45,008 nucleotides of DNA, from assembly GCF_900101395.1 (NCBI RefSeq), contig NZ_FMZO01000001.1:460892-505899 (forward strand), written 5' to 3'. The notes under the pieces were generated by a model. The model was not told where the DNA came from. It ran no database searches and saw only the letters and a list, made by a program, of their open reading frames with translations. Of the stretch, positions 21,826-42,988 are shown in pieces (positions within the stretch are counted from its first letter, which is position 1; each line of letters starts with the position of its first letter). The translations under genes and the position numbers were made by a program. This stretch comes from Niabella drilacis. Lineage in GTDB: Bacteria > Bacteroidota > Bacteroidia > Chitinophagales > Chitinophagaceae.

Positions 21826-21889
21826 GTTCCAGGTTTGAGGTTCAACGCTTCACGTTAGCTCAGTAAACGTTGAACGTGAAACTTGATGC
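21826..21889. repeat. Inverted heptad-repeat arrays between convergent genes
   Basis: On the - strand, four consecutive 7-bp units run from 21853 back to 21826 (GTGAAGC, GTTGAAC, CTCAAAC, CTGGAAC). On the + strand, three run from 21869 to 21889 (GTTGAAC, GTGAAAC, TTGATGC). The two arrays face apart around a 15-base centre and can form a hairpin. This is the shortest member of the heptad-repeat family and may act as a terminator for both convergent genes. Confidence 0.6.
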
Positions 21890-21965
21890 ATATGGTATGA
21901 AGGGTCCTGCCATCAATGATACTTTTTGGATCTATGCGGGACCTCGGCTAAAGGGCGCTTAAACC

Positions 21966-23009
21966 CTAAACGATCCGCCGGGTACGTTCCTTCATCAGCC
22001 GGATCGCCTGTTCCCGGGTCTCAAACATGTTGTTGATATTTACCAGGTTATCCGCAAGTTTATTGTATTGTTTCGTCATGAGGTAAATAAAGATATGCAG
22101 GTAATGGATCCCGTCAAACACAATAGCCTTCCGGGCTGCAAACTCATCTTTCCGTTTTAAAAATTCCCCGGGCATTTCGGTGTAGTGCAAACCGGGTCTC
22201 AGGTGGTGAATGATGTGATAACCATCGTTCCAGCAAATCCGGTTATATTCCGTGTTAATGCAGTTAATAGAGTTGGTATACAGGTTTTCCGGATCGGTAT
22301 GGTCAATAAAGGAGTGCTGCGTCCAGTTGCCCAGCATCATCACAAAACGGGCAAATAAAAGGGGAATAATAAATACGACCAGCGTAGCCTTCAGGTTCAC
22401 AAAGCACATGAGAACACAAAAGATCAGATAGGTGATCTCTCCAACGGAGAGACGTCTTGCGAGCTTTTTGCGGTTGCGTTTGGTGAGGTACTGAAAGGTG
22501 TCTTTAACCCCGGTAAATATGAAGTTAAAGAAATAAGCAAAAAAACTTTGCAGGCTGTCTCGCTGATAGCACATCGTACTGCTGTCATCGTGTTCGTTAT
22601 TGTTCTCTACATGATGCATGCCCATATGATGGCTGAAATAGCCTTCGGGGGCATGCCCGAATAACGGACAGAGGATCCAGGTAATGTAATTATGCGCTGC
22701 CTGCTGGTATTTTGGTTTAAACATCTTCCGGTGACAAAGACAATGGAACATCAGCCCGAACCGGCCCTTAAAATAAAACTGCGCCAGGTAAAAGTAGGGG
22801 ATCGCCACGGCCCACCAGAGCCATCCGTGCAGGAGGGGCGTAAACAGCAAAATGGCCAGCGGTAATACGGTAAGATGGATGAGCGTGAGCAGGTAAATAA
22901 AAGGAAGGTCCCGCTTATCGTTCATGATCCGCAACCAGAAACGGTCATAGGAACTCAACGATTTTTTAGGCTGATACACAGGATCAGTTAATGCGGATAA
23001 GGTCTTCAT
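21966..23009 (-). CDS. Membrane fatty acid desaturase family protein
   Basis: The 347-aa protein has four to six membrane helices (about 37-60, 64-82, 104-122 and a pair near 195-230). The di-iron histidine boxes are HCLCH at 89-93, HHMGMHH at 127-133, and HIIHHLRPGLHY in the C-terminal third. This is the FA_desaturase fold (PF00487), which introduces a double bond or hydroxyl into an acyl or terpenoid chain using O2. The position specificity cannot be read from sequence. No ferredoxin or reductase gene is adjacent. It is transcribed alone toward the heptad repeats at 21826-21889 and diverges from the NAD synthetase gene. Confidence 0.88.
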   Translation of the reverse strand: MKTLSALTDPVYQPKKSLSSYDRFWLRIMNDKRDLPFIYLLTLIHLTVLPLAILLFTPLLHGWLWWAVAIPYFYLAQFYFKGRFGLMFHCLCHRKMFKPKYQQAAHNYITWILCPLFGHAPEGYFSHHMGMHHVENNNEHDDSSTMCYQRDSLQSFFAYFFNFIFTGVKDTFQYLTKRNRKKLARRLSVGEITYLIFCVLMCFVNLKATLVVFIIPLLFARFVMMLGNWTQHSFIDHTDPENLYTNSINCINTEYNRICWNDGYHIIHHLRPGLHYTEMPGEFLKRKDEFAARKAIVFDGIHYLHIFIYLMTKQYNKLADNLVNINNMFETREQAIRLMKERTRRIV

Positions 23010-23134
23010 AACAGATTTTCAATTTACATATATAGCAGCGTGGCAATATAGGCAATCTTTTTAAGGTGGGCGGAGTTAATTATCTATAGAGAATGTTAAA
23101 GTATATTTGGCTTTAAACTTTGTTCTCATAAGAT

Positions 23135-23142
23135 TACATTTG
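23135..23142 (+). promoter_or_regulatory. -7 element TACATTTG for the NAD synthetase gene
   Basis: TACATTTG matches TAnnTTTG 21 bases upstream of ATG 23164. A second match, TATATTTG, lies further up at 23102-23109. Confidence 0.45.
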
Positions 23143-23163
23143 TAACTATTAATTGAGTACTTG

Positions 23164-24864
23164 ATGAAAATTGCTTTAGCGCAACAAAATTATCATATCG
23201 GGAATTTTGAGATCAACGTGGGAAAGATCATTTCCGGGATTCAGCAGGCAAAGGAAGCAGGGGCTGATCTTGTGGTATTTACCGAGTTGTGCGTTTGTGG
23301 ATACCCACCACAGGATTTCCTGGAATTTGATGATTTTATCCATGCCTGTGAGACGGCCGTGAACAGGATCGCCGCGCATACGCAGGGCATCGGTGTATTG
23401 ATCGGTACCCCCTGCCGTAATGAGAACGCCGATGGGAAAGATCTGTACAATGCTGCTTTTCTGCTGGAGGATGGAGCTGTTAAAGGAGTGGTACACAAAA
23501 CCCTGCTGCCCAATTATGATATTTTTGATGAGTATCGTTATTTTGAACCGGCAGATCACTGGCGGGTCCTGGAGTTCCGGGGTAAAAAGCTGGCCGTTAC
23601 GATTTGTGAGGATATCTGGAACATGGGTGAGAACCCGCTGTACCGTATAACACCGATGGATGAACTGATCAAAGATCAGCCGGATCTTATGATCAACCTT
23701 TCCGCATCTCCCTATAATTATGCCCAGGATGTAGTGCGCAACAGTATTGTAAAAGCGCATACCCTAAAGTACGGGTTGCCCATGCTTTATTGCAACACGG
23801 TTGGCTCGCAAACGGAAGTGGTGTTTGACGGGGGAAGCCTGGTTTACGACAACGCAGGTAATAAGGTAAAGGAATGCCGGTATTTTGAGGAAGATTTTTA
23901 TGTAGTGGAGCTGGATGCGCTTTTTGCAGGTTCCGCGCATACAGTAGCAGAAACGCCGATCTACTTTTCAGCATCGGAAGTAGGATTGGGTAAGCATACG
24001 CTGGACTACCTGTCTGACGAAAAAAATATCGAAGAGATCTACCAGGCGCTGGTATTGGGCATAAAGGACTATTTTACCAAGATGGGCTTTACCAAAGCGA
24101 TCCTTGGTGCATCCGGGGGGATTGACAGTGCCCTGGTGCAGGTATTGGCCGTGGATGCGCTGGGAAAAGAGAACGTTTGGGCTATATTGATGCCTTCGCA
24201 ATACTCTACCGGGCATTCCGTAGCAGATGCTGAGCAACTCAGCCGGAACCTGGGGAATCCGTATAACGTTCTTCCCATAAAAAACATTTATGACGCTTTT
24301 CTTAAAGAGCTGGCGCCTGTTTTTAAAGATCTTCCCTTTAGCGTAGCCGAGGAGAATATCCAGAGCCGGAGTCGCGGCAACCTGCTGATGGCCCTGTCGA
24401 ATAAATTCGGGAATATTTTATTGAACACTTCCAATAAGAGCGAACTGGCAACCGGCTATGGTACATTGTATGGCGACATGGCAGGAGGGATCGGTGTATT
24501 GGGGGATGTATATAAAACGCAGGTATATGCGCTGGCCCGGTATATTAACCGGAACGGAACGATTATACCGGACAACATCATCATCAAACCGCCTTCTGCA
24601 GAATTACGCCCGGGACAGAAGGACAGCGACAGTTTACCGGATTACGCGGACCTGGACACGATCCTGGTAGAATATATTGAAGGACGTAAGGGCCCGCGGG
24701 AAATAGAGGCCATGGGATATGATGCGGAACTGGTAGACCGGATCCTGAAAATGGTAAACCGGAATGAATATAAACGGAAACAGTTCTGTCCCATCATCCG
24801 GGTAAGCTATAAAGCATTTGGACCAGGCCGGAGGATGCCGGTAGTAGGCAAGTATCTTTCATAG
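23164..24864 (+). CDS. nadE: Glutamine-dependent NAD+ synthetase
   Basis: The 566-aa enzyme joins a CN-hydrolase glutaminase domain to an NAD synthetase domain. The glutaminase triad is Glu41 (FTELCVCGYPP), Lys112 (HKTLLPNYDIFDEYRYF) and Cys148 (TICEDIW). The synthetase domain has the ATP pyrophosphatase loop SGGIDS starting at 317, then LLNTSNKSELATGYGTLYGD and the C-terminal RVSYKAFGPGRRMPV. It amidates nicotinic acid adenine dinucleotide to NAD+ with ammonia from glutamine. I place the start at ATG 23164 rather than the adjacent TTG at 23161. It is monocistronic and followed by a heptad-repeat region. Confidence 0.96.
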   Translation: MKIALAQQNYHIGNFEINVGKIISGIQQAKEAGADLVVFTELCVCGYPPQDFLEFDDFIHACETAVNRIAAHTQGIGVLIGTPCRNENADGKDLYNAAFLLEDGAVKGVVHKTLLPNYDIFDEYRYFEPADHWRVLEFRGKKLAVTICEDIWNMGENPLYRITPMDELIKDQPDLMINLSASPYNYAQDVVRNSIVKAHTLKYGLPMLYCNTVGSQTEVVFDGGSLVYDNAGNKVKECRYFEEDFYVVELDALFAGSAHTVAETPIYFSASEVGLGKHTLDYLSDEKNIEEIYQALVLGIKDYFTKMGFTKAILGASGGIDSALVQVLAVDALGKENVWAILMPSQYSTGHSVADAEQLSRNLGNPYNVLPIKNIYDAFLKELAPVFKDLPFSVAEENIQSRSRGNLLMALSNKFGNILLNTSNKSELATGYGTLYGDMAGGIGVLGDVYKTQVYALARYINRNGTIIPDNIIIKPPSAELRPGQKDSDSLPDYADLDTILVEYIEGRKGPREIEAMGYDAELVDRILKMVNRNEYKRKQFCPIIRVSYKAFGPGRRMPVVGKYLS

Positions 24865-24939
24865 CGGGTGGCTGGCTGGAATTGAATAAGGGCCGGTGAA
24901 AAGAATATTCCGGCAGGTTATTTGCAGAAGGGAGGGGGA

Positions 24940-25061
24940 GTGAGCAGGGAAAGGCAATAGTGGATAGGGAGTGGTGAATAGACAATGATGAACAGGAGCG
25001 CTGTTGGCGAAGCTAAATGCTGATAGCGGAGATCTGAATACTGATATCTGTAATCTCAAAA
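24940..25061 (+). repeat. Heptad-repeat arrays in the moxR leader
   Basis: Units of 7 bp run from 24940, with one 6-bp slip: GTGAGCA, GGGAAAG, then GTGGATA, GGGAGTG, GTGAATA, GACAATG and ATGAACA to 24994. After a 25-base spacer a second array of CTGANNN-type units (CTGATAG, CTGAATA, CTGATAT and others) fills 25020-25061, ending six bases before the moxR ATG. The units are degenerate but the 7-bp register is clear. Confidence 0.65.
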
Positions 25062-25067
25062 ATAATT

Positions 25068-26069
25068 ATGGCAAAAACGGGAGAAGAAATACGTCAGTTA
25101 AATGAAAAAATAGTTGGGGCCGGCTATTTCGTGGACGCGTTACGTCAGGAGATCGGCCAGGTCATTGTAGGACAGCATCACATGCTGGATCGCTTATTGA
25201 TAGGGCTGCTCAGCAACGGGCATGTGCTGCTGGAGGGCGTGCCGGGGCTTGCAAAAACGCTTACGATCAAGTCCCTTGCCACGGCCATACAGGCCAACTT
25301 TAACCGGATCCAGTTTACACCGGACCTGTTGCCGGCTGATGTGATCGGCACACTGATCTATAACCAGCAGCAGAATGAATTTGTGGTGCGCAAGGGTCCC
25401 ATTTTTGCAAATTTCATCCTTGCGGATGAGATCAACCGGGCGCCTGCAAAAGTGCAGTCGGCCTTACTGGAGGCCATGCAGGAGCGGCAGGTGACTATTG
25501 GTGATCATACCTATAAGCTGGATGACCCTTTTTTGGTACTGGCCACACAGAACCCGCTGGAGCAGGAAGGCACCTATCCGTTGCCCGAGGCCCAGGTAGA
25601 CCGTTTCATTATGAAAGTGATCGTGCGTTACCCGGAAATGCAGGAGGAGCAGCTGATCCTGAGGCACAATGTACAGGGCGAAAAGCTGCCTCCGATCCGG
25701 CCGGTGGTCAATGTGCAGGAAATACTGGATGCAAAAAGCCTGGTGCGTGAGATCTATCTTGACGAGAAAGTAGAGCGGTATATACTGGATATCGTATTTG
25801 CCACCCGGTACCCGGGCCGGTATCAGCTGGAAAAGCTGGCTCCCCTGATCTCTTATGGAGCGTCTCCGCGCGGAAGCATTAACCTTGCATTGGCTGGTAA
25901 AGCACAGGCTTTTTTGAACAAGCGCGGATTTGTGATCCCTGAGGATATCCGTAGTGTGGTGTATGATGTACTGCGGCACCGGATCGGGCTTACCTACGAG
26001 GCGGAAGCAGAAAATATCGCGGCAGAGAATATTATTGATGAGGTACTGAAGGCGGTGAATGTGCCGTAG
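25068..26069 (+). CDS. moxR: MoxR family AAA+ ATPase
   Basis: The 333-aa ATPase carries Walker A GVPGLAKT at 57-64, Walker B FILADEINRAP near 113-123, and sensor segments VLATQNPLEQEGTYPLPEAQ and DRFIMK. This is the AAA_3 MoxR class, thought to act as a chaperone that activates VWA-domain partners. The DUF58 and BatA proteins encoded downstream are the likely partners. It is the first gene of a short aerotolerance-type operon. Its leader consists of heptad repeats up to six bases before the start codon. Confidence 0.94.
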   Translation: MAKTGEEIRQLNEKIVGAGYFVDALRQEIGQVIVGQHHMLDRLLIGLLSNGHVLLEGVPGLAKTLTIKSLATAIQANFNRIQFTPDLLPADVIGTLIYNQQQNEFVVRKGPIFANFILADEINRAPAKVQSALLEAMQERQVTIGDHTYKLDDPFLVLATQNPLEQEGTYPLPEAQVDRFIMKVIVRYPEMQEEQLILRHNVQGEKLPPIRPVVNVQEILDAKSLVREIYLDEKVERYILDIVFATRYPGRYQLEKLAPLISYGASPRGSINLALAGKAQAFLNKRGFVIPEDIRSVVYDVLRHRIGLTYEAEAENIAAENIIDEVLKAVNVP

Positions 26070-26075
26070 GAAGAA

Positions 26076-26196
26076 GTGAATGGTGAATAGTGAGAAGTGA
26101 ATAGTGAGAAATGAATAGTGAAAAGTAAATAGTGAATGGCCTGGTTGCTGACGACTAAAAACTCAAGGCTGATAGCTGATACCAGAAGTCTGATCG
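26076..26196 (+). repeat. Heptad-repeat arrays between moxR and the DUF58 gene
   Basis: Nine consecutive 7-bp units (GTGAATA and GTGAGAA types) fill 26076-26138. After nine bases, seven more of the CTGANNN type (CTGACGA to CTGATCG) fill 26148-26196. The order, GTGA-type then CTGA-type, is the same as upstream of moxR. The arrays contain TGA or TAG in every reading frame of the + strand. They occupy almost the whole intergenic gap. Confidence 0.85.
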
Positions 26197-26212
26197 CCCA
26201 AAAGAAAAATCA

Positions 26213-27097
26213 TTGCGGACACGTGAAGAAATATTAAAAAAGGTACGGGAGCTGGAGATCAAAAGCAAGAAACTGGCAACAGAATTGTTCTCCGGGGAGT
26301 ATCATAGTGCCTTCAAGGGCAAGGGAATGTCCTTTAAAGAGGTGCGGGAATATACTCCGGGTGATGATATCCGTTTTATCGATTGGAACGTATCGGCACG
26401 GATCGGGCATCCCTATTCCAAGATCTTCGAGGAAGAACGCGAGTTAACGGTAATGCTGCTGATCGATATCAGCCGGAGTGGTTTGTTTGGCACTTCTTAC
26501 GGGCGTAAACGGGATGTGGCTGCAGAGATCGCGGCTGTGCTTTCCTTTTCAGCAGTAGCCAACGCCGATAAGGTAGGCGCCGTTTTTTACAGCGACAAGA
26601 TCGAAATGTATATCCCGCCCAAAAAAGGAAGGCAGCATGCATTATTTATTGTAAGGGAGATGCTGGGGCTGGAGCCTTCCGGTAAAGGAACCAATACCGC
26701 AACCGCGATCCGTTTTTTGACCAATGCTATGAAGCAGGGGTGTATCGCATTTGTACTCAGTGATTTCATCGATACGAACTATGAAGATGCGTTGCGTGTG
26801 GCTGGAAAAAAGCACGATCTGATCGGGGTTAAGCTGTACGACCGGATGGATAAAGAGCTGCCGGATGCGGGGCTGATCCAGCTGATGGATGCAGAAACCG
26901 GGGCGCTTCAGTGGGTCGATTCGGGGAACGCCTATGTGCGGCGGAAGTATGAGGAAGAATTTTTCCGGATCACCGCCTATTGTGCCGCAGTTTTTAAAAA
27001 GGCCAACAGCGACCTGTTGCACCTGAAAACCGGGGATGATTACATCCAGGTGTTGCGTCGTTTTTTCAAGAGCAGGGTTAAAGGAAGTATTAAATAA
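26213..27097 (+). CDS. DUF58 domain protein of the Bat (aerotolerance) operon
   Basis: The 294-aa cytosolic protein has the DUF58 signature near residue 40 (YHSAFKGKGMSFKEVREYTPG, then DDIRFIDWNVSARIG). A VWA-like fold follows with LLIDISRSG at about 85-93 in place of a full MIDAS. The start is TTG 26213: no ATG lies in frame between it and an upstream TGA at 26177, and the resulting N-terminus (MRTREEILKKVRELEIKSKKL) fits the family length. It works with MoxR in an envelope-stress or assembly module. The gap to the next gene is 14 bases. Confidence 0.9.
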   Translation: MRTREEILKKVRELEIKSKKLATELFSGEYHSAFKGKGMSFKEVREYTPGDDIRFIDWNVSARIGHPYSKIFEEERELTVMLLIDISRSGLFGTSYGRKRDVAAEIAAVLSFSAVANADKVGAVFYSDKIEMYIPPKKGRQHALFIVREMLGLEPSGKGTNTATAIRFLTNAMKQGCIAFVLSDFIDTNYEDALRVAGKKHDLIGVKLYDRMDKELPDAGLIQLMDAETGALQWVDSGNAYVRRKYEEEFFRITAYCAAVFKKANSDLLHLKTGDDYIQVLRRFFKSRVKGSIK

Positions 27098-27111
27098 AGA
27101 GCAAGCAAGGA

Positions 27112-28059
27112 ATGTTTATAAAACGGGCATGGATCATAGTTTTGTTGTACCTGCTGACAGCGGGCTTCAATGCATCGCTGCTGGCCCAGGCGCCAACGGT
27201 TAGTGCTTCGGTAGATAAAAACAAGATCCTGCTTGGCGAACCGGTTCTGCTAACGCTCGAGATAAAGGCACCGCCGGGTAGTAAAATACAACCTGTAAAG
27301 ATCGATACCCTGCCACATTTTGAATTTCTTTCAAAAGACAGTATCGTAAAGGACAGTGCAGAAGGACAGCTGATTTTACGTCAGTACTTCCGGATTACAA
27401 GTTTTGACTCCGGCCGTTGGGCCATTCCCCCGATCGTTTTGAATGCTGAGGCTAAGACGGCATCTGTTCTGATGGATGTGGTGTTTACGGAGCCATTCGA
27501 TCCCAGCCAACCCTACCATGATATCCAGGATATCCGCTCGATCCCGTTCAAATTGGGAAAACAGTTTGAAAAATGGTGGTATATGATCGCCCTGTTACTC
27601 ATTATGATGACGCTGGTCGTTTATGTAATGACCGGGGAAAAGAAGCCCCGGGCAGAAACGAAAGCATATAAGAGCGCATATACCAGGGCCAAACAACAGC
27701 TGGCCGAATTAAAGAAAGCACAGGTTCCGGAGAGTCGTTTTTATGCCCGCCTGGTGGAGATATTAAGAGCTTTCTTGTCGGAGCGGGCAAGGGTGAATTC
27801 ATTACAGCAGACGTCCGGGGATCTTGTTGAAAAGATCAAACCACTTTTTAATGACGGGCAGTTGTACCAGAGCCTGGCGCAGGTACTGTCATTGTGCGAC
27901 CTGGTAAAGTTTGCCAAATACGACCCTGAAGACGCAGAGGCACGATCGGCTTATGAGGTGATCGATAAAGGGGTTGACCATATTGAGGAAGGGATCCGGA
28001 ACGCGGCAAAATTGAAAAAAGACGAAGACCGGCGCACTGAAATGATCCATAAAAAATGA
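27112..28059 (+). CDS. BatD/DUF4381-like membrane protein
   Basis: The 315-aa protein has a signal peptide (about 1-25), a periplasmic beta-rich domain (about 28-130: VSASVDKNKILLGEPVLLTLEI, as in BatD), a membrane helix (about 157-176) and a helical cytoplasmic tail ending in Lys-Lys. It is about half the length of a typical BatD and resembles the short BatD-like or DUF4381 proteins found between DUF58 and batA. Its stop codon overlaps the batA start by four bases (ATGA), so translation is coupled. The function is inferred from context. Confidence 0.72.
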   Translation: MFIKRAWIIVLLYLLTAGFNASLLAQAPTVSASVDKNKILLGEPVLLTLEIKAPPGSKIQPVKIDTLPHFEFLSKDSIVKDSAEGQLILRQYFRITSFDSGRWAIPPIVLNAEAKTASVLMDVVFTEPFDPSQPYHDIQDIRSIPFKLGKQFEKWWYMIALLLIMMTLVVYVMTGEKKPRAETKAYKSAYTRAKQQLAELKKAQVPESRFYARLVEILRAFLSERARVNSLQQTSGDLVEKIKPLFNDGQLYQSLAQVLSLCDLVKFAKYDPEDAEARSAYEVIDKGVDHIEEGIRNAAKLKKDEDRRTEMIHKK

Positions 28060-29054
28060 TTTACGACTGGTTGCAAAATATAAAGTTTATCTGGCCGGAG
28101 AATTTTATCTTCCTGGCGCTGATCCCTTTCCTGATTGCCCAGTATGTTAAGAATGGCAAGCAGGGGAAAAGCGCGATCCTGACCTCAGGTATCCAGTCGA
28201 AGATCCCTGGTACGTTTAAGACCCGGTTCCGGCATTTGCCTTTTGTGCTCCGCCTGATCGGTATAACCTGCCTGGTAACAGCGCTGGCGCGGCCGCAGCA
28301 TCAAAAGGATATGTCGCGCAGTGAAGGAGAAGGTATTGATATTATGCTGGTGATGGATGTGAGCGGCAGTATGCTTACCCAGGATATAAAGCCAAGGCGT
28401 TTCACTGTTGCAAAAGAAGTAGCCATTGATTTTGTGAAGAACCGGCCTACCGACCGGATCGGGCTGGTTATTTTTTCCGGGGAGGCTTTTACAAAAGTGC
28501 CGTTAACGCCGGATAAAGCTACCCTGCTGGATCAGCTCAGCCAGTTGAAGGTCATGGACGATGGCTACCTGGAGCCGGGCACGCTGATTGGGGAGGGGCT
28601 GGCAACAGCCGTAAACCGCATTAGCAAAGGCAGCAGTAAAACAAAGGTGATCATATTGCTGACCGATGGCAAGGAAGATGCGCCGCCCACCCGCATTATT
28701 GATCCGGGAATGGCACTGGAGATCGCCAAAGCCAACCGTGTAAGAGTTTATTGTGTAGGGTTGGGCGTAAGTGAGTTTACAGAGGAACAGGTGGCCTCGG
28801 GGGTCCGCAACTTCCTGGATGAGGACCTGCTGAAACGGATTGCCAGTGAGACCGGCGGCCAGTATTACCATGCGGTAGACAAGACGTCGCTGCAGGCGAT
28901 CTATAACCAGATCAATAAGCTGGAAAAGACAAAGGTTGAAGTGATCCGGTATAAACAAACGGAGGAAATGTTCCTGCCGTTGGTGCTTGCGGCACTGGGA
29001 CTTTTGCTGATCGAAGTGTTGCTGCGGTACACCTGGTTTAAACGCTTTCCGTAA
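28056..29054 (+). CDS. batA: VWA domain protein BatA
   Basis: The 332-aa protein is anchored by membrane helices near the start (about 16-32 and 60-78) and a C-terminal helix (about 306-325). The VWA domain in between has a complete MIDAS: DVSGSM at 101-106, a conserved Thr in PLTPDK and Asp in LLTDGKED. This is the BatA type of the aerotolerance operon and the likely client of MoxR. A batB, TPR batC and full-length batD usually follow; here a terminator comes directly after the stop codon. Confidence 0.9.
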   Translation: MIYDWLQNIKFIWPENFIFLALIPFLIAQYVKNGKQGKSAILTSGIQSKIPGTFKTRFRHLPFVLRLIGITCLVTALARPQHQKDMSRSEGEGIDIMLVMDVSGSMLTQDIKPRRFTVAKEVAIDFVKNRPTDRIGLVIFSGEAFTKVPLTPDKATLLDQLSQLKVMDDGYLEPGTLIGEGLATAVNRISKGSSKTKVIILLTDGKEDAPPTRIIDPGMALEIAKANRVRVYCVGLGVSEFTEEQVASGVRNFLDEDLLKRIASETGGQYYHAVDKTSLQAIYNQINKLEKTKVEVIRYKQTEEMFLPLVLAALGLLLIEVLLRYTWFKRFP

Positions 29055-29073
29055 TGACCGTACCGGTCATTTT
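29054..29073 (+). terminator. Terminator of the moxR-batA operon
   Basis: ATGACCG (29054-29060) pairs perfectly with CGGTCAT (29064-29070) around TAC and is followed by TTT. It overlaps the last base of the batA stop codon. Confidence 0.7.
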
Positions 29074-29334
29074 CCTGCAGAGAAACATTGAAAAAGGTCA
29101 CCGGCAGATCGGTGGGAAAAGATCCGCTTGAACCTGCAGTTGAGATTGCTTAAAGCCACCGGGCGAACCCTGTGGTTATTCCCGGGTATTTAATTTTGAA
29201 ATAAAAAGGCATTTATTGGAACAATTCCGGAGTTTTGGTATCTTCAGGAAGTATTTGATGATTGCTGTAGAAGAAGGTTATGTAGCGACGGTGTTTTTTT
29301 GACGTTGTTTATTCATCCTTAAAACATAAATCAT

Positions 29335-30048: not shown

Positions 30049-30093
30049 TCAACTGAGAACGGCCCCCGGAAAGGACGGTAAGCAAAATAGTGT

Positions 30094-30139
30094 AAGCCGC
30101 ATCATCGTACCATTCATTGTACGATAATGCGGCTTATTT
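30094..30139 (+). terminator. Long terminator hairpin after the aquaporin gene
   Basis: AAGCCGCAT (30094-30102) and ATCGTAC (30104-30110) pair with GTACGAT (30119-30125) and ATGCGGCTT (30127-30135), giving a 16-bp stem with a single mismatch and an eight-base loop, followed by ATTTG. It lies between the convergent aquaporin and cytochrome genes and may also stop - strand transcripts. Confidence 0.85.
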
Positions 30140-30345
30140 GTTAAAAGATAAGGTAATGCCCATTAAAAACCGATGCGGAAAGTTGGTGCACTGATTCCAA
30201 CTGTACAGATCTGAAATCGTTCCGGTGGCAGCCCGTTCCGCCCAAAGATCTGCTCAATATGTAAAAGGCTGCCGGGGCTGCAAGGCCGTCAGCAAAACGT
30301 ATACGGGCAATGATAAAACGGGGGGCATAAAGTATTCATCTCATA

Positions 30346-32598: not shown

Positions 32599-32606
32599 CA
32601 AATATA
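32599..32606 (-). promoter_or_regulatory. -7 element TATATTTG for the octaheme cytochrome gene
   Basis: The - strand reads TATATTTG, matching TAnnTTTG, 15 bases upstream of ATG 32583. It supports the later start codon. Confidence 0.45.
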
Positions 32607-32614
32607 AGTATCCG

Positions 32615-32649
32615 TTTTCAGGTATCAGTCATCAGTTTTCAGCTATCAG
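32615..32649 (-). repeat. Heptad-repeat array upstream of the cytochrome gene
   Basis: On the - strand five consecutive 7-bp units are visible: CTGATAG, CTGAAAA, CTGATGA, CTGATAC and CTGAAAA. These are the same CTGANNN type as in the moxR region, in the sense of the cytochrome gene. Confidence 0.75.
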
Positions 32650-32727
32650 CCCGGGCTCCTTCCCTGATTTGAGATTGGTTTCGGTTTTATTCCCAGTTCC
32701 TCCGGTCCATTTTCGCATTTTTCAAAT

Positions 32728-32755
32728 CTGACTGCTGGTAGCTGAGGTCTATTGA
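32728..32755 (+). repeat. Short heptad-repeat array at the end of the endonuclease V gene
   Basis: CTGACTG, CTGGTAG, CTGAGGT and CTATTGA lie in 7-bp register on the + strand. The last unit overlaps the stop codon and final codon of the - strand endonuclease gene. Orientation is opposite to the array at 32615-32649, 78 bases away. Confidence 0.5.
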
Positions 32756-33559: not shown

Positions 33560-33584
33560 TACTGAAGTAGGAATGTTGTGCCGG

Positions 33585-35312: not shown

Positions 35313-35333
35313 TTCTTAATGTTTATACATCAA

Positions 35334-35341
35334 CAAAAGTA
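35334..35341 (-). promoter_or_regulatory. Possible internal -7 element TACTTTTG before the histidine kinase gene
   Basis: The - strand reads TACTTTTG in the 35-base gap between the KdpD-like and histidine kinase genes, 21 bases before the kinase start. Confidence 0.3.
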
Positions 35342-35347
35342 ATAACC

Positions 35348-36457: not shown

Positions 36458-36469
36458 AGTGTGGTTTAT

Positions 36470-37570
36470 TTAAAAAGAAAACGCAAGTGCGCTAGTGATC
36501 GCAAAGTTATTATTTGATGAAAGATTCCCCCTTAAAAAGACCGGGTCGCTGCTGTTAAACCCCCGGCCTTCAATACGCCATACAAACTGACGGCTGATCC
36601 TGCGGTCGATATTGAGGGAATAGCCCCAGGTTTTAAACCCCTGTGCCGTATTGGTAGCAATGATCACTCCGGCCGGGTCATTAAAATATTCACCGCGCAG
36701 CCCGGTGTTCCACCTGTCATTAAACCAGCTGGCAATTACCACCGGCGTATACCAGGTATTGTAGCCATGGTGTTCGGCTTTCCGCTGCTCCACACCGATA
36801 TCAAATCCCAGGGTTAATGAAAAATGGGGCGACAGGAGTAACTGCCCATACAGATTGTGAAAATACCGCATCTGCCGGGTACTGTCCGGCTTATCATTAC
36901 CGATGAATGAGCTGCTGTTAAGCGTTATGTTGTCCGAAGGCTTAAAGGTAAGCTGGTGGCCAAAGGCCAGGGTATTGTTCCCGTGTGCCCGTTCAATGCG
37001 TTGCCAGCCATTCAGGACCAAGCCGCTCAGATACCATTTGCCATTGCCGGAGGTATAGGAAAGGCGGACACCCGTTTCAAAATAGGGCGAATTTTCTGCC
37101 GCGATGCTGCGGGTCAATGTCGGGCAGTCTTTTCCAATAGCACTTTCCCAGCCAATATGGGAGGGCAGGATACCGGCGTCTACCCAGAGGTTGCTTTTTT
37201 TTGAGAGTTTAACACCGGCGTTGGCTTCGTAAATATTTTTTAACCCATCTTTTTCGGCAGCCATATTATCATTGCTATAGGTACCGGCCATGAGGGCGAT
37301 ATTTCCTCTTACGCGTTCTGCGGCATAACTGGCCTTGACCATTGCAAGATTGATCGCTATCGTATGATGACGATTGTAGCTGTACAAAAAAGGCTGGCGG
37401 ATATGATGGCCGGGTTTCCCGAAATCATAGCTGTAAAATGTTTCGCCATAACCGCTGACTGTTAACGATTTTTCGGTGGTATCCGTTTGCGCGGTTGCTT
37501 TTTGAAGCGCGGTAAACGGAGCGGTGAGCGCCAGCCAGATAATGCTGTTGCGGATTGTTCTGCTGTTCAT
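36470..37570 (-). CDS. BBP2-type outer membrane porin in the kdp operon
   Basis: The 366-aa protein has a signal peptide (about 1-28) and then an antiparallel beta-barrel. It begins SLTVSGYGETFYSYDFG and has alternating aromatic strands and a final Phe (SALAFSF). This matches the putative beta-barrel porin-2 family (BBP2). Position between kdpC and the KdpD-like gene suggests an outer-membrane path used when K+ is scarce; that is inference. Selectivity cannot be read from sequence. A long imperfect hairpin lies upstream (37603-37675), and the kdpD-like gene follows by 12 bases. Confidence 0.85.
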   Translation of the reverse strand: MNSRTIRNSIIWLALTAPFTALQKATAQTDTTEKSLTVSGYGETFYSYDFGKPGHHIRQPFLYSYNRHHTIAINLAMVKASYAAERVRGNIALMAGTYSNDNMAAEKDGLKNIYEANAGVKLSKKSNLWVDAGILPSHIGWESAIGKDCPTLTRSIAAENSPYFETGVRLSYTSGNGKWYLSGLVLNGWQRIERAHGNNTLAFGHQLTFKPSDNITLNSSSFIGNDKPDSTRQMRYFHNLYGQLLLSPHFSLTLGFDIGVEQRKAEHHGYNTWYTPVVIASWFNDRWNTGLRGEYFNDPAGVIIATNTAQGFKTWGYSLNIDRRISRQFVWRIEGRGFNSSDPVFLRGNLSSNNNFAITSALAFSF

Positions 37571-37602
37571 ACGTGTTGGTTTCTTTGAGTTGTTTTGCGA
37601 AG

Positions 37603-37675
37603 GACCGGTACGCCTTGCGGTTCCCGGCGGCCTCCCCTTTTAAAAAGAGGAGTACCGGGAGCGCAGGTGCCGGTC
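37603..37675. repeat. Long imperfect hairpin between kdpC and the porin gene
   Basis: GACCGG (37603-37608) pairs with CCGGTC (37670-37675). Inside, GCCTTGCGGTTCCCGG pairs imperfectly with CCGGGAGCGCAGGTGC, leaving a centre with CCCCTTTTAAAAAGAGG. It has no terminal T run. It may attenuate or stabilise the kdp transcript so that the porin and sensor genes are expressed at another level than kdpABC. Confidence 0.6.
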
Positions 37676-37691
37676 ATCGGGTTATAAGGAA

Positions 37692-38240
37692 TCAATGGTT
37701 CAATTTGTCAAGGTCGATATTTAACTTCAGTACGTTTATTTTCTGAGGTCCCAGCAGCGGCCGGTTTGTGTGTTGGTTTACCAGCTCCTGTACGGCCTGT
37801 TGCGATAACTTGCGGGCCGTTGCAATACGGGCCACCTGTGCATTTGCCGCAGCAACAGAAATGTCGGGATCCAGTCCGCTGCCGCTTGCGGTTACGATAT
37901 CGGCGGGGATTACGGCTCCGGGATTGTTTTGCCGGAAGGCTTCCACCCGTTGCTGTACTTCTTTCAGGTAGCCGGGGTTATTGGGCCCCTTGTTGCTGCC
38001 CCCGCTTCCGGCAGCATTATAGGCTACTGCGGAAGGGCGGGAGTTGAAGTAGATAACACTATCGAAACGCTGTCCGATATTGGCATAATAACTTTTCCCG
38101 TTGCGATCGGCAATCTTTTCGCCCTTTCCTTTTTCGGGGGTGAGCCCTGCAAAGCCGGAGAGCAGAAGTGTATAAACGCCTGCACAAAGGATCATCAGCA
38201 CAAGGGTAAGGCGTAGAGCGGGAAGGATCTGTTGTTTCAT
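37692..38240 (-). CDS. kdpC: Potassium-transporting ATPase subunit KdpC
   Basis: The 182-aa protein has one N-terminal membrane helix (about 9-31) and the periplasmic KdpC domain. Family segments include IGQRFDSVIYFNSRPSAVAYNA near 56, GSNKGPNNPGYL near 82, and ASGSGLDPDISVAAANAQVARIA near 122, followed by LVNQHTNRPLLG. KdpC stabilises the KdpFABC complex. The gap to kdpB is 127 bases and holds heptad repeats. Confidence 0.95.
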   Translation of the reverse strand: MKQQILPALRLTLVLMILCAGVYTLLLSGFAGLTPEKGKGEKIADRNGKSYYANIGQRFDSVIYFNSRPSAVAYNAAGSGGSNKGPNNPGYLKEVQQRVEAFRQNNPGAVIPADIVTASGSGLDPDISVAAANAQVARIATARKLSQQAVQELVNQHTNRPLLGPQKINVLKLNIDLDKLNH

Positions 38241-38271
38241 TGTTTTGTTTTTTTGGGGAGTGGGGGAATTA

Positions 38272-38353
38272 GTGAGATGTTTACAGTGAGATGTTTTTAG
38301 TGAAATGTTTTAGTGAAATGTTTTAGTGAGATGTTTGTAGTAAAATGTTGATG
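38272..38353 (+). repeat. Heptad-repeat array between kdpB and kdpC
   Basis: Twelve units alternate GTGAGAT or GTGAAAT with GTTTTTA-type units. Ten are 7 bp and two are 6 bp, giving a 13-14-bp higher-order period. The array lies on the strand opposite to the kdp genes and ends 14 bases before the kdpB stop codon at 38368. Confidence 0.85.
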
Positions 38354-38367
38354 AAGGGCGCCGCTTT

Positions 38368-40449
38368 TTAAAACAGCAGTCCGGTCATCAGATCAATCAG
38401 CTTGATACCGATAAAGGGTACGATGATACCACCGAGGCCGTAAATAAACAGGTTTCTTCGCAGCAGTGCGCTGGCACCAATGGGTTTGTAGGCAACGCCC
38501 TTCAACGCCAATGGTATTAGTAAAGGAATGATGATGGCATTAAAGATCACTGCCGAAAGAATGGCGCTTTCCGGACTGTGCAGCCGCATAATATTCAGTC
38601 CTTGCAGGGACGGAATGGCCGCAATGAATAAGGCAGGAATGATGGCGAAATATTTGGCTACATCATTGGCAATGCTGAAGGTGGTAAGCGTACCACGGGT
38701 CATCAGCAATTGTTTGCCGATCTCCACTACTTCAATAAGTTTGGTAGGATCGTTGTCTAGATCCACCATATTGCCGGCCTCTTTAGCCGCCTGTGTTCCG
38801 CTGTTCATGGCTACACCAACATCCGCCTGGGCCAGTGCAGGTGCATCATTGGTGCCGTCGCCCATCATCGCCACCAAACGGCCTTCTGCCTGCTCCTTGC
38901 GGATATAGTTCATTTTATCTTCGGGTTTCGCCTCCGCAATAAAATCATCCACACCGGCCTTTTCAGCAATGAATTTTGCGGTAAGCGGGTTGTCTCCGGT
39001 TACCATCACCGTTTTAATACCCATCCGGCGCAGCCGTTCAAAGCGTTCCTGTATACCGGGTTTAATAATGTCCTGCAATTCGATTACTCCCAGCACCACA
39101 TCGTTTTGGGCTACAACCAGGGGCGTGCCACCATTGCTGGCGATCTCCTTTGTTTTTGCCAGGGTTTCGGCCGGGATGTAGTTGCCGGCTTTTTGAACCA
39201 GCCGGGTAATGGCATCCATAGCGCCTTTACGGATATGGACACCACTGAAGTTTACACCGGAGCAGCGGGTCTCGGCGGTAAACGGAATGGGCTTATAACT
39301 GCTGTGCTCGGAGGAAAATTGTTGCTGTGCATAGGGGATATAGTTTTTATCTTTAAACAGGCCGGATGCCAGTTCCACAATGGATTTTCCCTCAGGCGTT
39401 TCATCTGCAAGAGAACCCAATACGGCCGCTTCCATAAAATCCTGTTCGCCGGTATTATGAGCCGGCCAAAAGTGGGTGGCCTTCCGGTTTCCGATGGTGA
39501 TGGTTCCTGTTTTATCCAGTAACAGCACGTCAATATCGCCGGCGGTTTCAACGGCTTTACCGCTTTTGGTAATCACGTTTGCTCTTAGTGCCCGGTCCAT
39601 ACCCGCAATACCGATCGCAGACAGCAAACCACCAATGGTGGTGGGTATCAGACAAACAAAGAGCGCAATCAGGGCGGCGATGGGAATGGGCGAATGGGCA
39701 AAATCGCCAAAGGGTTTCAGGGTGGTACAAACGATAATAAATACCAGTGAAAAACCGGCCAGCAGGATGGTAAGGGCAATTTCGTTGGGCGTTTTCTGCC
39801 GGGAGGCACCTTCCACCAGGGCAATCATTTTGTCGAGGAAACTTTCGCCGGGTTTGGTGGTTACTTTTACTTTTATTTTATCCGACAATACTTTGGTACC
39901 GCCCGTAACGGAGCTTTTATCGCCCCCGGCTTCGCGGATCACCGGTGCACTTTCGCCGGTGATGGCGCTTTCATCAATCGTGGCAAGTCCTTCGATAATC
40001 TCCCCGTCGGTGGGGATGATATCGCCTGGTTCGCATACAAAAATATCATTGAGCTGAAGGGTAGAAGAGGGCACGATGCGGATTTCATTCAGCGTCATTT
40101 CGCCTACCAGATCTATTTTTTTTGCCGGGGTTTCTTCTCTCGTTTTCCGAAGGCTGTTGGCCTGTGCCTTACCACGTGCTTCGGCAATGGCTTCTGCAAA
40201 ATTGGCAAAGAGCAGGGTAACAAATAGTACAGCGGTGATGATAATATTATAGGCAAGTGTTCTCTGTGCTCCGTTGCTTCCGTTAACAGCGATCTGAACG
40301 CATACGCCCAGCATCACCAGGGTGCCGGTCCATACCAGGAACATGACAGGGTTACGGAACATTTTTGAGGGACTGAGTTTTAAAAAAGAGTCCTTCAGCG
40401 CTTCAATGAACTGGTCTTTTTGAAATAATGATGTATGTTGATTTTTCAT
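38368..40449 (-). CDS. kdpB: Potassium-transporting P-type ATPase subunit KdpB
   Basis: The 693-aa P-type ATPase hydrolyses ATP to drive K+ uptake in KdpFABC. Motifs are TGES at 164-167 (actuator domain), the phosphorylated Asp312 in [17 protein letters not shown], and [12 protein letters not shown] in the P-domain. The membrane segments expected of KdpB are present. The length is normal and no key residue is missing. On the upstream side, heptad repeats begin one base before its start codon, so the natural leader appears replaced. It is 742 bases from kdpA because a four-helix-bundle gene and repeats lie between. Confidence 0.97.
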
Positions 40450-40450
40450 T

Positions 40451-40582
40451 GTGAGATGTTTGTGAGAGGTGATAGTGAGATGTTCTTAGTAAGAGGTTCT
40501 TAGTGAGAAGTTTTTAGTGAGAGGTTATTAGTGAGAAGTTTTTAGTAAGAAGTTGTTTGTGAGCGGTTATTCGTGAGCTCTT
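40451..40582 (+). repeat. Heptad-repeat array upstream of kdpB
   Basis: After two irregular units, fifteen consecutive 7-bp units fill 40475-40579. GTGAGAA, GTGAGAG or GTAAGAA alternate with GTTNTTA, giving a 14-bp higher-order period. The array begins one base upstream of the kdpB start codon and ends 85 bases before the four-helix-bundle gene, in the same orientation as that gene. Confidence 0.9.
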
Positions 40583-40664
40583 TTGTAAAAGGGAGCATAT
40601 TGTTGGATAAAATGTATTTGTTTTTTATATTATAATTAATTATATTCGATGAAATATTTAACTT
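40583..40664 (+). promoter_or_regulatory. AT-rich leader with a 12-bp palindrome upstream of the four-helix-bundle gene
   Basis: The 82 bases before the start codon are far more AT-rich than the surroundings. They contain the palindrome ATAATTAATTAT (40632-40643). It is a likely promoter or binding site for the + strand gene. No clean TAnnTTTG is present. Confidence 0.4.
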
Positions 40665-41018
40665 ATGAAACCACACCAAAAATTAAACGCATGGGCAGAC
40701 AGTTTTGAACTTGTTAAAGAATTATATGCTGTAACAAAAGCACTTCCTCCCGAAGAAAAATTTGGCCTTGTTTCGCAAATACGAAGGGCCGCCGTTTCTG
40801 TTCCTGTAAACATTGCTGAAGGGGCCGCCCGGAAAAGCCCGAAGCAGTTTGCCTGGTTCCTGTATGTTTCGCTGGGCTCGCTGACGGAACTGGATACGCT
40901 TATATTGCTCTGCGGTGCCCTGGAATTTATTCCCCCGCAGGAATGTACCCGGTTGGTTGAAAAAATGGATATCATTGGGAAGATGATTTATGGGTTGATT
41001 AAAAGTTTGGAGAAGTGA
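40665..41018 (+). CDS. Four helix bundle protein (23S rRNA intervening-sequence type)
   Basis: The 117-aa protein matches the S23/IVP family (PF05635, TIGR02436). It opens HQKLNAWADSFELVKELY, and the signature SQIRRAAVSVPVNIAEGAAR lies at about 37-56, followed by FLYVSLGSLTELDTLILL. The family forms a pentameric four-helix bundle that is positively charged; the related Avd protein serves diversity-generating retroelements. Some members sit in 23S rRNA intervening sequences, but this copy is not in an rRNA gene, and no reverse transcriptase is near. It lies on the + strand between the - strand genes kdpA and kdpB and is flanked by heptad-repeat arrays. It looks inserted. The cellular role is unknown. 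Confidence 0.92.
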   Translation: MKPHQKLNAWADSFELVKELYAVTKALPPEEKFGLVSQIRRAAVSVPVNIAEGAARKSPKQFAWFLYVSLGSLTELDTLILLCGALEFIPPQECTRLVEKMDIIGKMIYGLIKSLEK

Positions 41019-41023
41019 TGTTG

Positions 41024-41121
41024 GTGAAATGTTTTTAGTGAGAAGTTGTTTGTAAAAAGTGAGAAGTTGTTTGTAAAAAGTTGTTAGTAAGAAGTGAGAT
41101 GTTATTGGTAAGAAGTGGGAT
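41024..41121 (+). repeat. Heptad-repeat array downstream of the four-helix-bundle gene
   Basis: Fourteen consecutive 7-bp units run without a slip from 41024 to 41121. GTGAGAA, GTTGTTT and GTAAAAA follow each other twice (41038-41079), then more diverged units. The array begins six bases after the stop codon of the four-helix-bundle gene. Every unit starts with GT. Confidence 0.92.
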
Positions 41122-41153
41122 GGAAAGGACTAACCCAACTATGCTGTATCCTA

Positions 41154-41181
41154 CTTTTACAAACAACTTCTTACCGGCTAC
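41154..41181 (-). repeat. Inverted heptad-repeat array before the kdpA end
   Basis: On the - strand GTAGCCG, GTAAGAA, GTTGTTT and GTAAAAG lie in 7-bp register. Seventeen bases (41155-41171) are the exact reverse complement of 41041-41057 and of 41062-41078, so a stem can form. The array starts 11 bases beyond the kdpA stop codon and is the only one in the kdp region with this orientation. Confidence 0.85.
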
Positions 41182-41191
41182 TTTTCATAAC

Positions 41192-42880
41192 CTAACCCAT
41201 CCCAAAATATTCTGCAATAGGCCCCAATGTTAATGCCGGGAAGAAGGAAAGTGCAGCTACGATAACGATTACGGCAAAAACCATAAATCCGAAAGTGGCG
41301 GTATCTGTTTTCAGGGTGCCGGCGCTTTCAGGGATGTATTTTTTTGCACCAAGAATGCCGGCGATGGCCACTGGGCCGATGATGGGAAGATAGCGGGAGA
41401 GGATCAGTACAAAACCCGTGCTGATATTCCACCAGGGGGTATTGTCACCCAGGCCTTCAAACCCACTTCCGTTGTTGGCTGCACTGGAAGTATATTCGTA
41501 GAGCATCTCGCTAAAGCCATGAAAGCCGGGATTGGCGAGGGTAGAAGCCGTTTGTGAAGGCAATGCCGCAGCCAGTGCGGTGCCGGCCAGTATCAGCAGC
41601 GGATGCAGCAAAGCTACGATCATGGCAATCTTCATTTCGCGGGCTTCTATTTTCTTGCCCAGGAATTCCGGGGTGCGTCCAACCATCAATCCGCTTACAA
41701 AAACGGCAAGAATGATGAATACAAAATAGTTCAGGATACCCACACCGCAGCCGCCATAAAAACAATTGGTCATCATCGCCAGCAGCATATTCATACCACT
41801 CAGTGGCATATAGCTGGAGTGCATGGAGTTAATGGAGCCGGTGGAGATCACCGTGGTGGCAATGCTCCAATAGGCGGAGGCCGGGGTACCGAAGCGTACT
41901 TCTTTTCCCTCCATGGCCCCCAGTGCAGGGCTAACGCCCATGGCCGTGATGTTGGGGTTGCCGTGCATCTCCATAATAATATTGGGTATACAAAGGATCA
42001 GGAATCCAAGGGTCATGACGCACCAGATTGCCCATCCCAGTTTCCTGCGGTTGATGAACTGTCCAAAAGCAAATACCATCGCAAAGGGGATTAGCATTTG
42101 TGCAATCATCTGCGTCATATTGGTGATGTAATTCACATTTTCCAGTGGGTGCGCGGAGTTGGCGCCAAAAAAACCACCACCATTGGTGCCCAGGTGTTTG
42201 ATAGGAACAAATGCAGCCACCGGACCGGTAGACACATACGTAGTATCGCCCTGCAGGGTAATCATCTGCTGTTTGCCTTCAAAGGTCATGGGGGTATGAT
42301 TAAGGATCAGGATTATTCCAATGATGATGGAAATGGGCAACAGGATCCGGGTAATGGATTTTACAAAGGCGTTGTAAAAATTGCCCAGGGTTTGATGTGT
42401 TCCTTTCCGGAACGCATAGAACACCGCGGCGGCGGCGGCCATACCGGTGGCAGCGGTTACAAACTGCAAAAACATCAGGTAGAGCTGGCTGAAGTAGCTG
42501 ACTCCGGTTTCTCCGGAATAGTGCTGCAGGTTACAGTTTACCAGGAAGGAAATGGAAGTATTAAAGGCCTGGTCCGGCGTTTGGTTGGGATTATGATCGG
42601 GGTTAAGCGGCAGCCAGGACTGATTCAGCAGGATGAACATACCCAGGAGAAACCAAACCAGGTTAATGACCAGCAATGCCACAAGCTGTTGTTTCCAGTT
42701 TTGTTCCTTTTGGGGATCGATCCCGCTGCATTTAAAAAGAAACCGTTCAATGGGATTAAAAACCGGATCAAGGAATGTGCGCTCATTGCCGTACACTTTT
42801 GCAATATACCTTCCTAAGGGCAGGGAAAGCAACAGTGTAAGAATAAACATGACGATGATGCCTGATATTTCTGTGTTCAT
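41192..42880 (-). CDS. kdpA: Potassium-transporting ATPase subunit KdpA
   Basis: This 562-aa channel-like subunit selects and passes K+ in KdpFABC. It has about ten membrane helices. Filter-loop segments include FNTSISFLVNCNLQHYSGE near 106-124 and HLGTNGGGFFGANSAHP near 229-245. FGTPASAYWSIATTVISTGS lies further on, with a last repeat near NNGSGFEGLG. Length and motifs are normal. Its start is preceded by a heptad-repeat array that separates it from kdpF by about 110 bases. Confidence 0.97.
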   Translation of the reverse strand: MNTEISGIIVMFILTLLLSLPLGRYIAKVYGNERTFLDPVFNPIERFLFKCSGIDPQKEQNWKQQLVALLVINLVWFLLGMFILLNQSWLPLNPDHNPNQTPDQAFNTSISFLVNCNLQHYSGETGVSYFSQLYLMFLQFVTAATGMAAAAAVFYAFRKGTHQTLGNFYNAFVKSITRILLPISIIIGIILILNHTPMTFEGKQQMITLQGDTTYVSTGPVAAFVPIKHLGTNGGGFFGANSAHPLENVNYITNMTQMIAQMLIPFAMVFAFGQFINRRKLGWAIWCVMTLGFLILCIPNIIMEMHGNPNITAMGVSPALGAMEGKEVRFGTPASAYWSIATTVISTGSINSMHSSYMPLSGMNMLLAMMTNCFYGGCGVGILNYFVFIILAVFVSGLMVGRTPEFLGKKIEAREMKIAMIVALLHPLLILAGTALAAALPSQTASTLANPGFHGFSEMLYEYTSSAANNGSGFEGLGDNTPWWNISTGFVLILSRYLPIIGPVAIAGILGAKKYIPESAGTLKTDTATFGFMVFAVIVIVAALSFFPALTLGPIAEYFGMG

Positions 42881-42890
42881 TGTTTGGAGG

Positions 42891-42988
42891 AAGTTTTTAG
42901 TGAGAAATGAAGGGTTAATAATGTTTTAGTGAGAAGTAATGTTAAGGGGGGAAGTTTATGGTGAGAGGTTTATAGTGAAACGTGGAGC
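42891..42988 (+). repeat. Heptad-repeat array between kdpF and kdpA
   Basis: Units such as GTGAGAA (42900 and 42929), ATGAAGG, GTTAATA, GTGAGAG (42961), GTTTATA, GTGAAAC and GTGGAGC are in 7-bp register with two interruptions. The array starts ten bases upstream of the kdpA start codon and ends five bases before the kdpF stop. Confidence 0.75.

Follow-up and report, generated by a model that had tools for sequence, protein, structure and literature searches.

The window analysed here, 45,008 nucleotides of Niabella drilacis DNA (NCBI RefSeq assembly GCF_900101395.1, contig NZ_FMZO01000001.1, positions 460,892 to 505,899 of the forward strand), contains gaps between genes that are filled with tandem units in a 7-bp register. 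A widespread type of element, in which a PF05635/S23 gene is bracketed by inverted tandem arrays of 7-bp, sometimes 8-bp, units, probably accounts for them: the arrays would be its arms or its scars. An initial annotation had described arrays at ten places; it overlooked that many of them form inverted pairs, that other gaps carry very different words, and that PF05635 genes lie inside the pairs. Here, G000 is the window's own genome, the other G numbers are compared genomes, and L numbers are fetched loci.

Most PF05635 genes lie between inverted arms

The flank comparisons indicate that the PF05635 gene and the inverted arms belong together. G000 has 13 PF05635 matches, 10 of them above the Pfam cut-off. 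When flanks were compared in inverted orientation (270 bp from the domain ends for PF05635, 250 bp from the ends of open reading frames, or ORFs, for the controls), five of these ten genes beat all 147 control ORFs, three were in the top 2.1%, and two (L030 and L033) were unremarkable. The gene in the window belongs to an element with an inverted flank match of 23, the maximum among the 147 controls being 17. Among the three matches below the cut-off, L035 has inverted flanks (21) and L034 and L036 have none. In a blind ranking of 881 ORFs of eight samples, two known PF05635 genes came second and third for inverted flanks, and first place went to an ORF without heptads; the ranking could not take account of a few unlisted PF05635 matches in G008, G012, and G020.

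The family is present in 35 of 39 genomes (relatives, including G000), and 38 loci of G000 and its relatives gave an inverted flank match of 18.5, against 11.4 for mispaired flanks (p = 9e-17), with 25 of the 38 above the 95th percentile of the mispaired. This set leaves out the below-cut-off L034, L035, and L036, and the short locus L061. For 76 loci of named genomes, drawn from the best 80 of at least 588 confirmed PF05635 places after leaving out L103, L104, L134, and L147 (second flank missing), the values were 19.9 and 10.9 (p = 3e-38; 50 of 76 above the 95th percentile). Examples come from a Clostridia metagenome-assembled genome (MAG), Ignavibacteriae, Pyrinomonadaceae, a betaproteobacterial MAG, Gemmataceae, and Brevundimonas. 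Twenty loci from 15 genomes chosen outside Bacteroidota, about half of them already in the named set, scored 23.2 against 10.6 when mispaired (17 of 20 high), and 28 loci of the cyanobacterial phylum scored 32.6 against 12.2 (24 of 28 high); each of these two sets began with 30 loci, of which cut contigs removed 10 and 2, respectively. Over all fetched loci, 143 of the 190 examined score at least 16, a threshold close to the 95th percentile for mispaired arms. The 190 are what is left of 218 after subtracting 12 without usable coordinates, 14 duplicates, and 2 with short flanks.

Substitution patterns indicate that the PF05635 gene is under purifying selection. The ratio of nonsynonymous to synonymous substitution rates (dN/dS) is 0.04 for the window gene compared with its G005 orthologue and 0.02–0.18 in eight of nine computable PF05635 pairs, with 0.53 in one very close pair; dS is at least 1 in five of the nine, and two further pairs were saturated.

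Two further observations concern other inverted ends. In a Methanophagales archaeon MAG (L104 and L200; an archaeal bin, with the contig assignment taken as given), 8-bp arms, CTAAACCG/CTAAACCT, stand beside a PF05635 gene. In the sample of G018 (L180–L184) and at L314, a different, G+C-rich inverted repeat of the GTCGCCTCCGGCGAC type encloses a gene, in a genome that lacks PF05635.

Arrays in the window

The features are given below with their strand. The z values are from a period test that uses a word-free 7-column score in 63-bp windows, compared with shuffles.

40450..40664, forward: 5' arm of the PF05635 element; 15 in-register heptads at 40475-40579, GTGAGAA and GTTNTTA alternating, then an A/T-rich leader up to the ATG
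40665..41018, forward: PF05635 gene (S23, 23S_rRNA_IVP, "23S rRNA intervening sequence protein"), 117 aa, four-helix-bundle family
41019..41191, forward: 3' side of the PF05635 element; 14 direct heptads at 41024-41121, then an inverted arm at about 41151-41188
38241..38367, forward: kdpC-kdpB gap array, one-sided, with the word class of the PF05635 arms; z 5.9
42881..42985, forward: array upstream of kdpA, with the word class of the PF05635 arms; z 4.5, weak by period alone
26070..26212, forward: moxR-DUF58 gap array without a gene; GTGAATA units, then CTGATAG units; z 18.8
24865..25067, forward: nadE-moxR gap array, one-sided; GTGANNN, then CTGANNN units; z 8.2
32602..32748, reverse: gap on the downstream side of endonuclease V; a pair of inverted arms, at about 32615-32649 and 32722-32748, that encloses no gene
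21819..21893, forward: convergent gap with paired arms GGTTTGAGGTTCAACG / CGTTGAACGTGAAACTTG; z 5.6

The nearest solved structure to the window's PF05635 protein is XCC0516 (2gsc). Its gene lies between kdpB and kdpA, antisense to kdp, which is an exception to the usual sense placement. The 3' side of the element (41019-41191) pairs with itself in inverted orientation at a score of 19.5, which none of 50 shuffles reached. The self-inverted score of the endonuclease V gap was likewise reached by none of 50 shuffles and that of the convergent gap by one, as compared with 30 for the kdpC-kdpB gap and 48 for the nadE-moxR gap. From 38241 to 42985, several stretches around the kdp genes have a GTGAGAA/GTTTTTA word class in common, as if one word had spread between gaps; similar words are found on contig C29 at 411883 and 232833.

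The 7-bp arrays proved to be genuine and intergenic, beyond what shuffled controls give. Runs of at least four GTNANNN or CTGANNN units, which the initial annotation had suggested counting, occur three times in the window, three times in 400 kb of the same contig, and never in the shuffles; all six lie between genes. At 6-, 8-, and 9-bp steps, the same unit test returned one run altogether, in coding DNA, and the reversed unit spelling at 7 bp returned one (intergenic, in the window). Read in register, all 15 units of 40475-40579 and all 14 of 41024-41121 begin with GT, as do eight of nine at 26076-26138 (the odd unit is ATGAATA), and six of seven at 26148-26196 begin with CT, four of these with CTGA. 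"Strict", as the period had been called, is thus slightly too strong a word. Eight of the ten places reach z values of 5.3–18.8; those at 41154 (3.6) and 42891 (4.5) are weak alone, because a shuffled 45-kb window yields 3.4 runs at z of at least 4.5. The array at 41154 is the inverted partner of that at 41024. A stricter lag-7 count recovers only three of the window's places.

In the 400-kb sample of the contig, counted without a low-complexity filter, period 7 gives 19 runs at z of at least 7 (shuffles, 0.7) and 12 at z of at least 8 (shuffles, 0). The corresponding counts are 19 and 5 for period 4, and 13 and 5 for period 6; periods 5, 8, 10, 11, and 13 give 4, 4, 2, 1, and 0 runs at the lower threshold. 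Period 7 thus leads at the higher threshold, where no other tested period exceeds 5, and ties with period 4 at the lower one. Shuffles and period controls together rule out a chance origin of the arrays. By eye, nearly every gap of this sample has its own word. Its most regular array, at C29:190348-190518, has about 15 near-perfect CTGATGT units (z 26.7). At C29:205973-213860 (L011), in what by eye appears to be a ribosomal-protein operon, nearly each gap carries a different heptad word, and several of the arrays stop a few bases upstream of a start codon.

Words, periods, and anatomy of the arms

When arms were mispaired solely within genomes (50 loci, six genomes), the match was 21.6 for the two arms of one locus and 11.2 for arms combined from two loci (p = 8e-23), which argues that each locus has its own word, common to its two arms. 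In the Clostridia genome G237, for instance, the words include GGCAATC, GAATGAG, AATGGAC, and the 8-bp TCGTGAAG, with arms at 8 of 13 loci and none at the other five. PF05635 genes of Cyanobacteria are flanked by heptads such as GTCATTA, AATTCGT, and AGGAGTC. Since AATTCGT, GGCAATC, and AATGGAC contain no TGA, the earlier suggestion that TGA in the units closes reading frames does not hold in general. The suggestion that spacing rather than exact sequence is conserved fared better: by eye, orthologous gaps of sister species can change the word and keep the period and the inversion. At an ABC-transporter gap locus compared in seven genomes, five score at least 19.5 (L044 and L047 score 9.5 and 14), with at least three word classes by eye.

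Among the 152 flanks of the 76 named loci, period 7 tops 30 shuffles in 82 (expected 4.9; other periods 2–15, and the harmonic 14, 58). The best period at z of at least 4, in 232 flanks tested, is 7 in 86, 8 in 12, 5 in 6, and others in 1–3. Both 7 and 8 occur within G237, so a period dictated by the host is rejected; at L118 and L152, both arms have period 8. The period follows the S23 protein tree, with 15 changes against 21.2 when shuffled (0 of 300), and 20 against 28.9 (0 of 300) in an enlarged set, which left out L298 (no open frame by the rule used), loci with neither period, and duplicates. Shuffling only within genomes gave 21 of 300, which is not significant.

In the 143 high-scoring loci, the matched part of the arms has a median of 44 bp and lies 33–40 bp from the domain ends. 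G makes up 26% and C 10% of the 5' arm, with the 3' arm as its mirror. G exceeds C in the 5' arm of 125 of these loci, C exceeds G in 12, and the two are equal in 6; for control 5' flanks, taken from genomes of the window's family only, G exceeds C in 104 of 261. Where both neighbors are close (n = 158), the PF05635 gene is co-oriented with both in 121 cases, opposed to both in 15, and mixed in 22.

Arrays and PF05635 copies across genomes

In a sample of 198 genomes from the window's phylum (G000 included), 157 have PF05635, as do 41 of 78 genomes of the cyanobacterial phylum, 36 of these over the cut-off. With G000 excluded (197 genomes), five-unit TGA or AGT heptads are present in 134 of 156 genomes with PF05635 and in 13 of 41 without; for TGA heptads alone, the figures are 110 of 156 and 10 of 41. 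AGT entered as a backward-pattern control and was counted as a second heptad word since it is common in arms; these counts have no control at other periods. Median heptad matches rise from 0 through 7, 11, 16.5, and 25 to 35 over the copy classes 0, 1, 2–3, 4–6, 7–9, and 10 or more, a measure that takes in overlapping matches of one array and so reflects array amount, not array number. The more S23 copies a genome has, the larger its array amount tends to be (rho 0.49; partial rho 0.44 given genome size), and none of 2000 within-family permutations reaches this link, which argues against genome size or family as a confounder. Single families vary, with rho of 0.03 (f30), 0.25 (f37), and 0.97 (f38). 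In DNA samples, one sees 5–10.3 period-7 runs per 100 kb in four genomes with 8–14 copies and 0–2 in three genomes with 0–1; in G008, period 5 is as frequent as period 7 (6 and 5 runs per 100 kb).

Presence and absence at orthologous gaps

Judged by eye and without a species tree, the PF05635 gene is present at some orthologous gaps and absent at others, and the arms are often there either way. Between hisA and hisF, the gene is found in G000, G008, G011, and G016. In G005 and G006 it is absent, and a 3' arm remains that differs little from the G011 arm; G010 and G015 retain short heptad stretches. The gaps are 0–7 bp in G001, G009, and G014, there is practically no gap in G007, and the gaps of 99–195 bp in G003, G004, G012, and G018 were left unclassified. 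At the moxR-DUF58 gap, which holds the window array at 26076, G001 and G002 have gene and arms, and G013 has the arm word and no gene. Between kdpB and kdpA, the gene is present in G000, G005, and G011 (with a stop), a truncated remnant is left in G015, G006 and G010 have a hairpin of another word and no gene, and seven distant congeners show no array by eye. G000 and five sister species all have arrays in the endonuclease V gap, every species with words of its own (by eye); among four more distant genomes, where the identity of the next gene was assumed, G012 has some CAG-type heptads and three have none. The gene-less arrays of G000 match its own PF05635 arms at 18.3 and the arms of four other genomes at 12.6–15.1.

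Because congeners at hisA-hisF, moxR-DUF58, and kdpB-kdpA have either gene and arms or arms alone, the gene-less arrays of the window are best read as probable scars.

A possible mechanism and its rivals

In the explanation that we favor, the element, which usually occupies an operon gap with its gene in the sense direction, owns the arms, and gene-less arms would mostly be scars of lost genes. The arms would form a foldable DNA hairpin instead of a fixed recognition sequence, as no word is common to the copies. Because the arms of a locus agree, something should copy arm onto arm or hold both to one word; fold-back at the DNA level plus unit slippage is the simplest candidate, since there is no G.U bias and no reverse transcriptase was found in the genome. 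Whole-unit slippage and fold-back template switching during DNA replication would keep the two arms alike: fold-back would copy one arm onto the other, so that the word drifts and the step and inversion stay. The S23 ring protein would act on the array, and its register would be the 7- or 8-nt step. A role for this protein is favored by the coexistence of the two periods and by their fit to the protein tree, with the non-significant within-genome test kept in mind; S23 may drive arm copying, bind the arms, or only ride inside.

Several results weigh against the arms belonging to such an element. There are 47 of the 190 loci that score below 16, and the low-scoring PF05635 members L287–L291 of G237 have no inverted arms; these perhaps form a subfamily with another life style. 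The direct-orientation flank match is also raised, less strongly than the inverted one (14.0 against 10.8, p = 2e-4, in the 38 loci; 14.0 against 10.7, p = 1e-5, in the 76 named loci), and in the window element it is even the higher of the two (42 against 23), because the 3' side opens with direct heptads. Only 8 of 30 gene-less arrays are hairpins, so loss of one arm or one-sided growth must be assumed. In the absence of a species tree, gene loss leaving scars is not separated from an arms-first order, save for the decaying kdp copies (truncated in G015, stop-bearing in G011). Neither junctions nor movement were observed, nor were target duplications, for which no search was made. Nine of 99 genomes with at least four PF05635 copies have none of the searched words; conversely, G131, G141, and G205, of the same phylum, have many array matches and no PF05635 hit, and their arrays could be scars only or have another driver. 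There is also no sign of selection for an RNA stem: arm mismatches are of the G.U type in 265 cases and of the A.C type in 261, and folding of the window element shows no surplus over 20 shuffles (z -1.25).

The last two results also bear on the proposal that the arrays are an RNA device, in which the arms would base-pair in the mRNA and be cleaved, or the heptads would attract a regulator of translation, as suggested for TAACTGA repeats upstream of start codons. rRNA intervening sequences that carry S23 are excised by RNase III at a stem of this kind (PMC4990558), and by eye several heptads end just upstream of start codons. Yet the G.U test and the window fold are negative for a stem selected on the sense strand, the C-poor 5' arms and G-poor 3' arms, which would limit self-pairing within an arm, notwithstanding; arrays also occur in a convergent gap and antisense to kdp, and we regard this device as quite improbable. 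It is rather unlikely, too, that the arrays are binding sites by which S23 or another repeat-reading protein, a ring with one 7- or 8-nt unit per subunit, regulates the host operon. A conserved step with free sequence, the dominance of 7 and 8, a period that partly follows the protein, and sense placement in operon gaps would all suit it, as would the ring, a related Xanthomonas S23 protein being described as a homopentamer of four-helix bundles (PMC4990558). Presence and absence at housekeeping operons of sister species, together with word turnover, do not look like conserved regulation, and the binding is putative.

One might instead suppose that ordinary replication slippage with a 7-nt bias makes gap arrays, and that PF05635 genes merely land or survive best there. 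Heptanucleotides are described as the most abundant long simple repeats in most surveyed genomes, for which polymerase slippage was proposed (Mrazek et al. 2007, as cited in PMC4679880). PF05635 is missing from some genomes that have arrays, in the sampled genome most arrays enclose no gene, and the arrays may have come before the gene. Slippage alone, however, explains neither the inversion, the matched words, the 8-bp elements that coexist with 7-bp ones in one genome, nor the polarity of a G-rich 5' arm. The period also follows the S23 protein tree (with the within-genome reservation given above), and the three distant gene-less congeners have no array in their short hisA-hisF gaps; in plain form this account is unlikely. 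Least probable by far is that a genomic reverse transcriptase makes the arms by self-primed copying, with S23 acting like Avd of diversity-generating retroelements. PF05635 does resemble Avd (PMC10053308), and the bAvd Pfam hit is below its cut-off; RVT_1 was found in 12 of 30 genomes searched and has no match in G000, nor in G001, G007, G008, and G016, each with 10–20 PF05635 matches, which largely refutes the idea. Among the roles that had been suggested with the initial annotation, a footprint of copying is nearest to the evidence, a binding array is possible, and an RNA element has no positive support.

Comparison with known systems

By analogy, the element may be viewed as an rRNA intervening sequence living in gaps between protein genes. 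The rRNA intervening sequence, for example, that of Coxiella burnetii, holds an S23p ORF within terminal inverted repeats, sits in rRNA helix 45 with one 28-bp stem, and has been called selfish and was once thought mobile (PMC4990558). The window element shares with it an S23/PF05635 gene and, as at 143 of the 190 loci, terminal inverted repeats around the ORF. It differs in that the elements described here lie between protein genes, have arms made of tandem 7- or 8-bp arrays with a locus-specific word, are present in several copies in many genomes, and include gene-less arms. The window element is not in an rRNA gene: the window has no Rfam match, and the gene is between kdpB and kdpA.

Comparison with the short tandemly repeated repetitive (STRR) sequences, made from the sequence initially, was right in kind, as both are tandem 7-bp units in intergenic DNA and cyanobacterial PF05635 genes are flanked by heptads. 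The cyanobacterial arm words given above presumably resemble the STRR repeats of heterocystous cyanobacteria. We know of no earlier link between STRR repeats and PF05635, and in the open-licence literature, the titles and abstract openings of the matches listed contain nothing that joins PF05635 or four-helix-bundle genes with heptamer arrays. The TAACTGA heptamers (MacGregor 2015) are likewise 7-bp tandem gap units and frequently precede a start codon. They are found in Beggiatoaceae, Cyanobacteria, and five Bacteroidetes, some of the last with other heptamers beside TAACTGA; close relatives have shorter, repeat-free gaps (PMC4679880). That study describes one main word, repeated directly except for one indirect copy in the main genome, and reads it as post-transcriptional (PMC4679880), whereas here there are many words, mostly in inverted pairs around PF05635. 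The text of PMC4679880 does not contain "intervening", "23S", or "four helix".

Avd and bAvd of diversity-generating retroelements belong to the same protein superfamily as PF05635 (PMC10053308; Pfam), but those systems differ in having a reverse transcriptase, of which no RVT_1 match was found in the window's genome. Miniature inverted-repeat transposable elements and insertion sequences are similar in having a small insert or gene between inverted ends and in being polymorphic for presence; unlike them, the copies here have no end sequence in common, and arms mispaired within a genome match at about background. PF05635 is, to our knowledge, no known transposase. Presence and absence at orthologous sites, which mark a mobile element in the wide sense, were seen in these comparisons.

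Implications

The finding joins two puzzles, the function of S23/PF05635 outside rRNA and the origin of bacterial heptamer repeats, and makes the question testable at defined loci. We recommend caution with "four helix bundle protein" genes annotated inside operons, as these may be cargo of the element and not members of the operon. Tentatively, and with somewhat less than an even chance in our judgement, the elements could be minimal mobile elements of a new class, with a rhythm instead of a sequence for their ends, each S23 element building or rewriting matched 7- or 8-nt arrays. If so, the scattered heptamer repeats of Bacteroidota and Cyanobacteria would largely be ends and scars of S23 elements, and a conserved protein would be working with freely drifting words.

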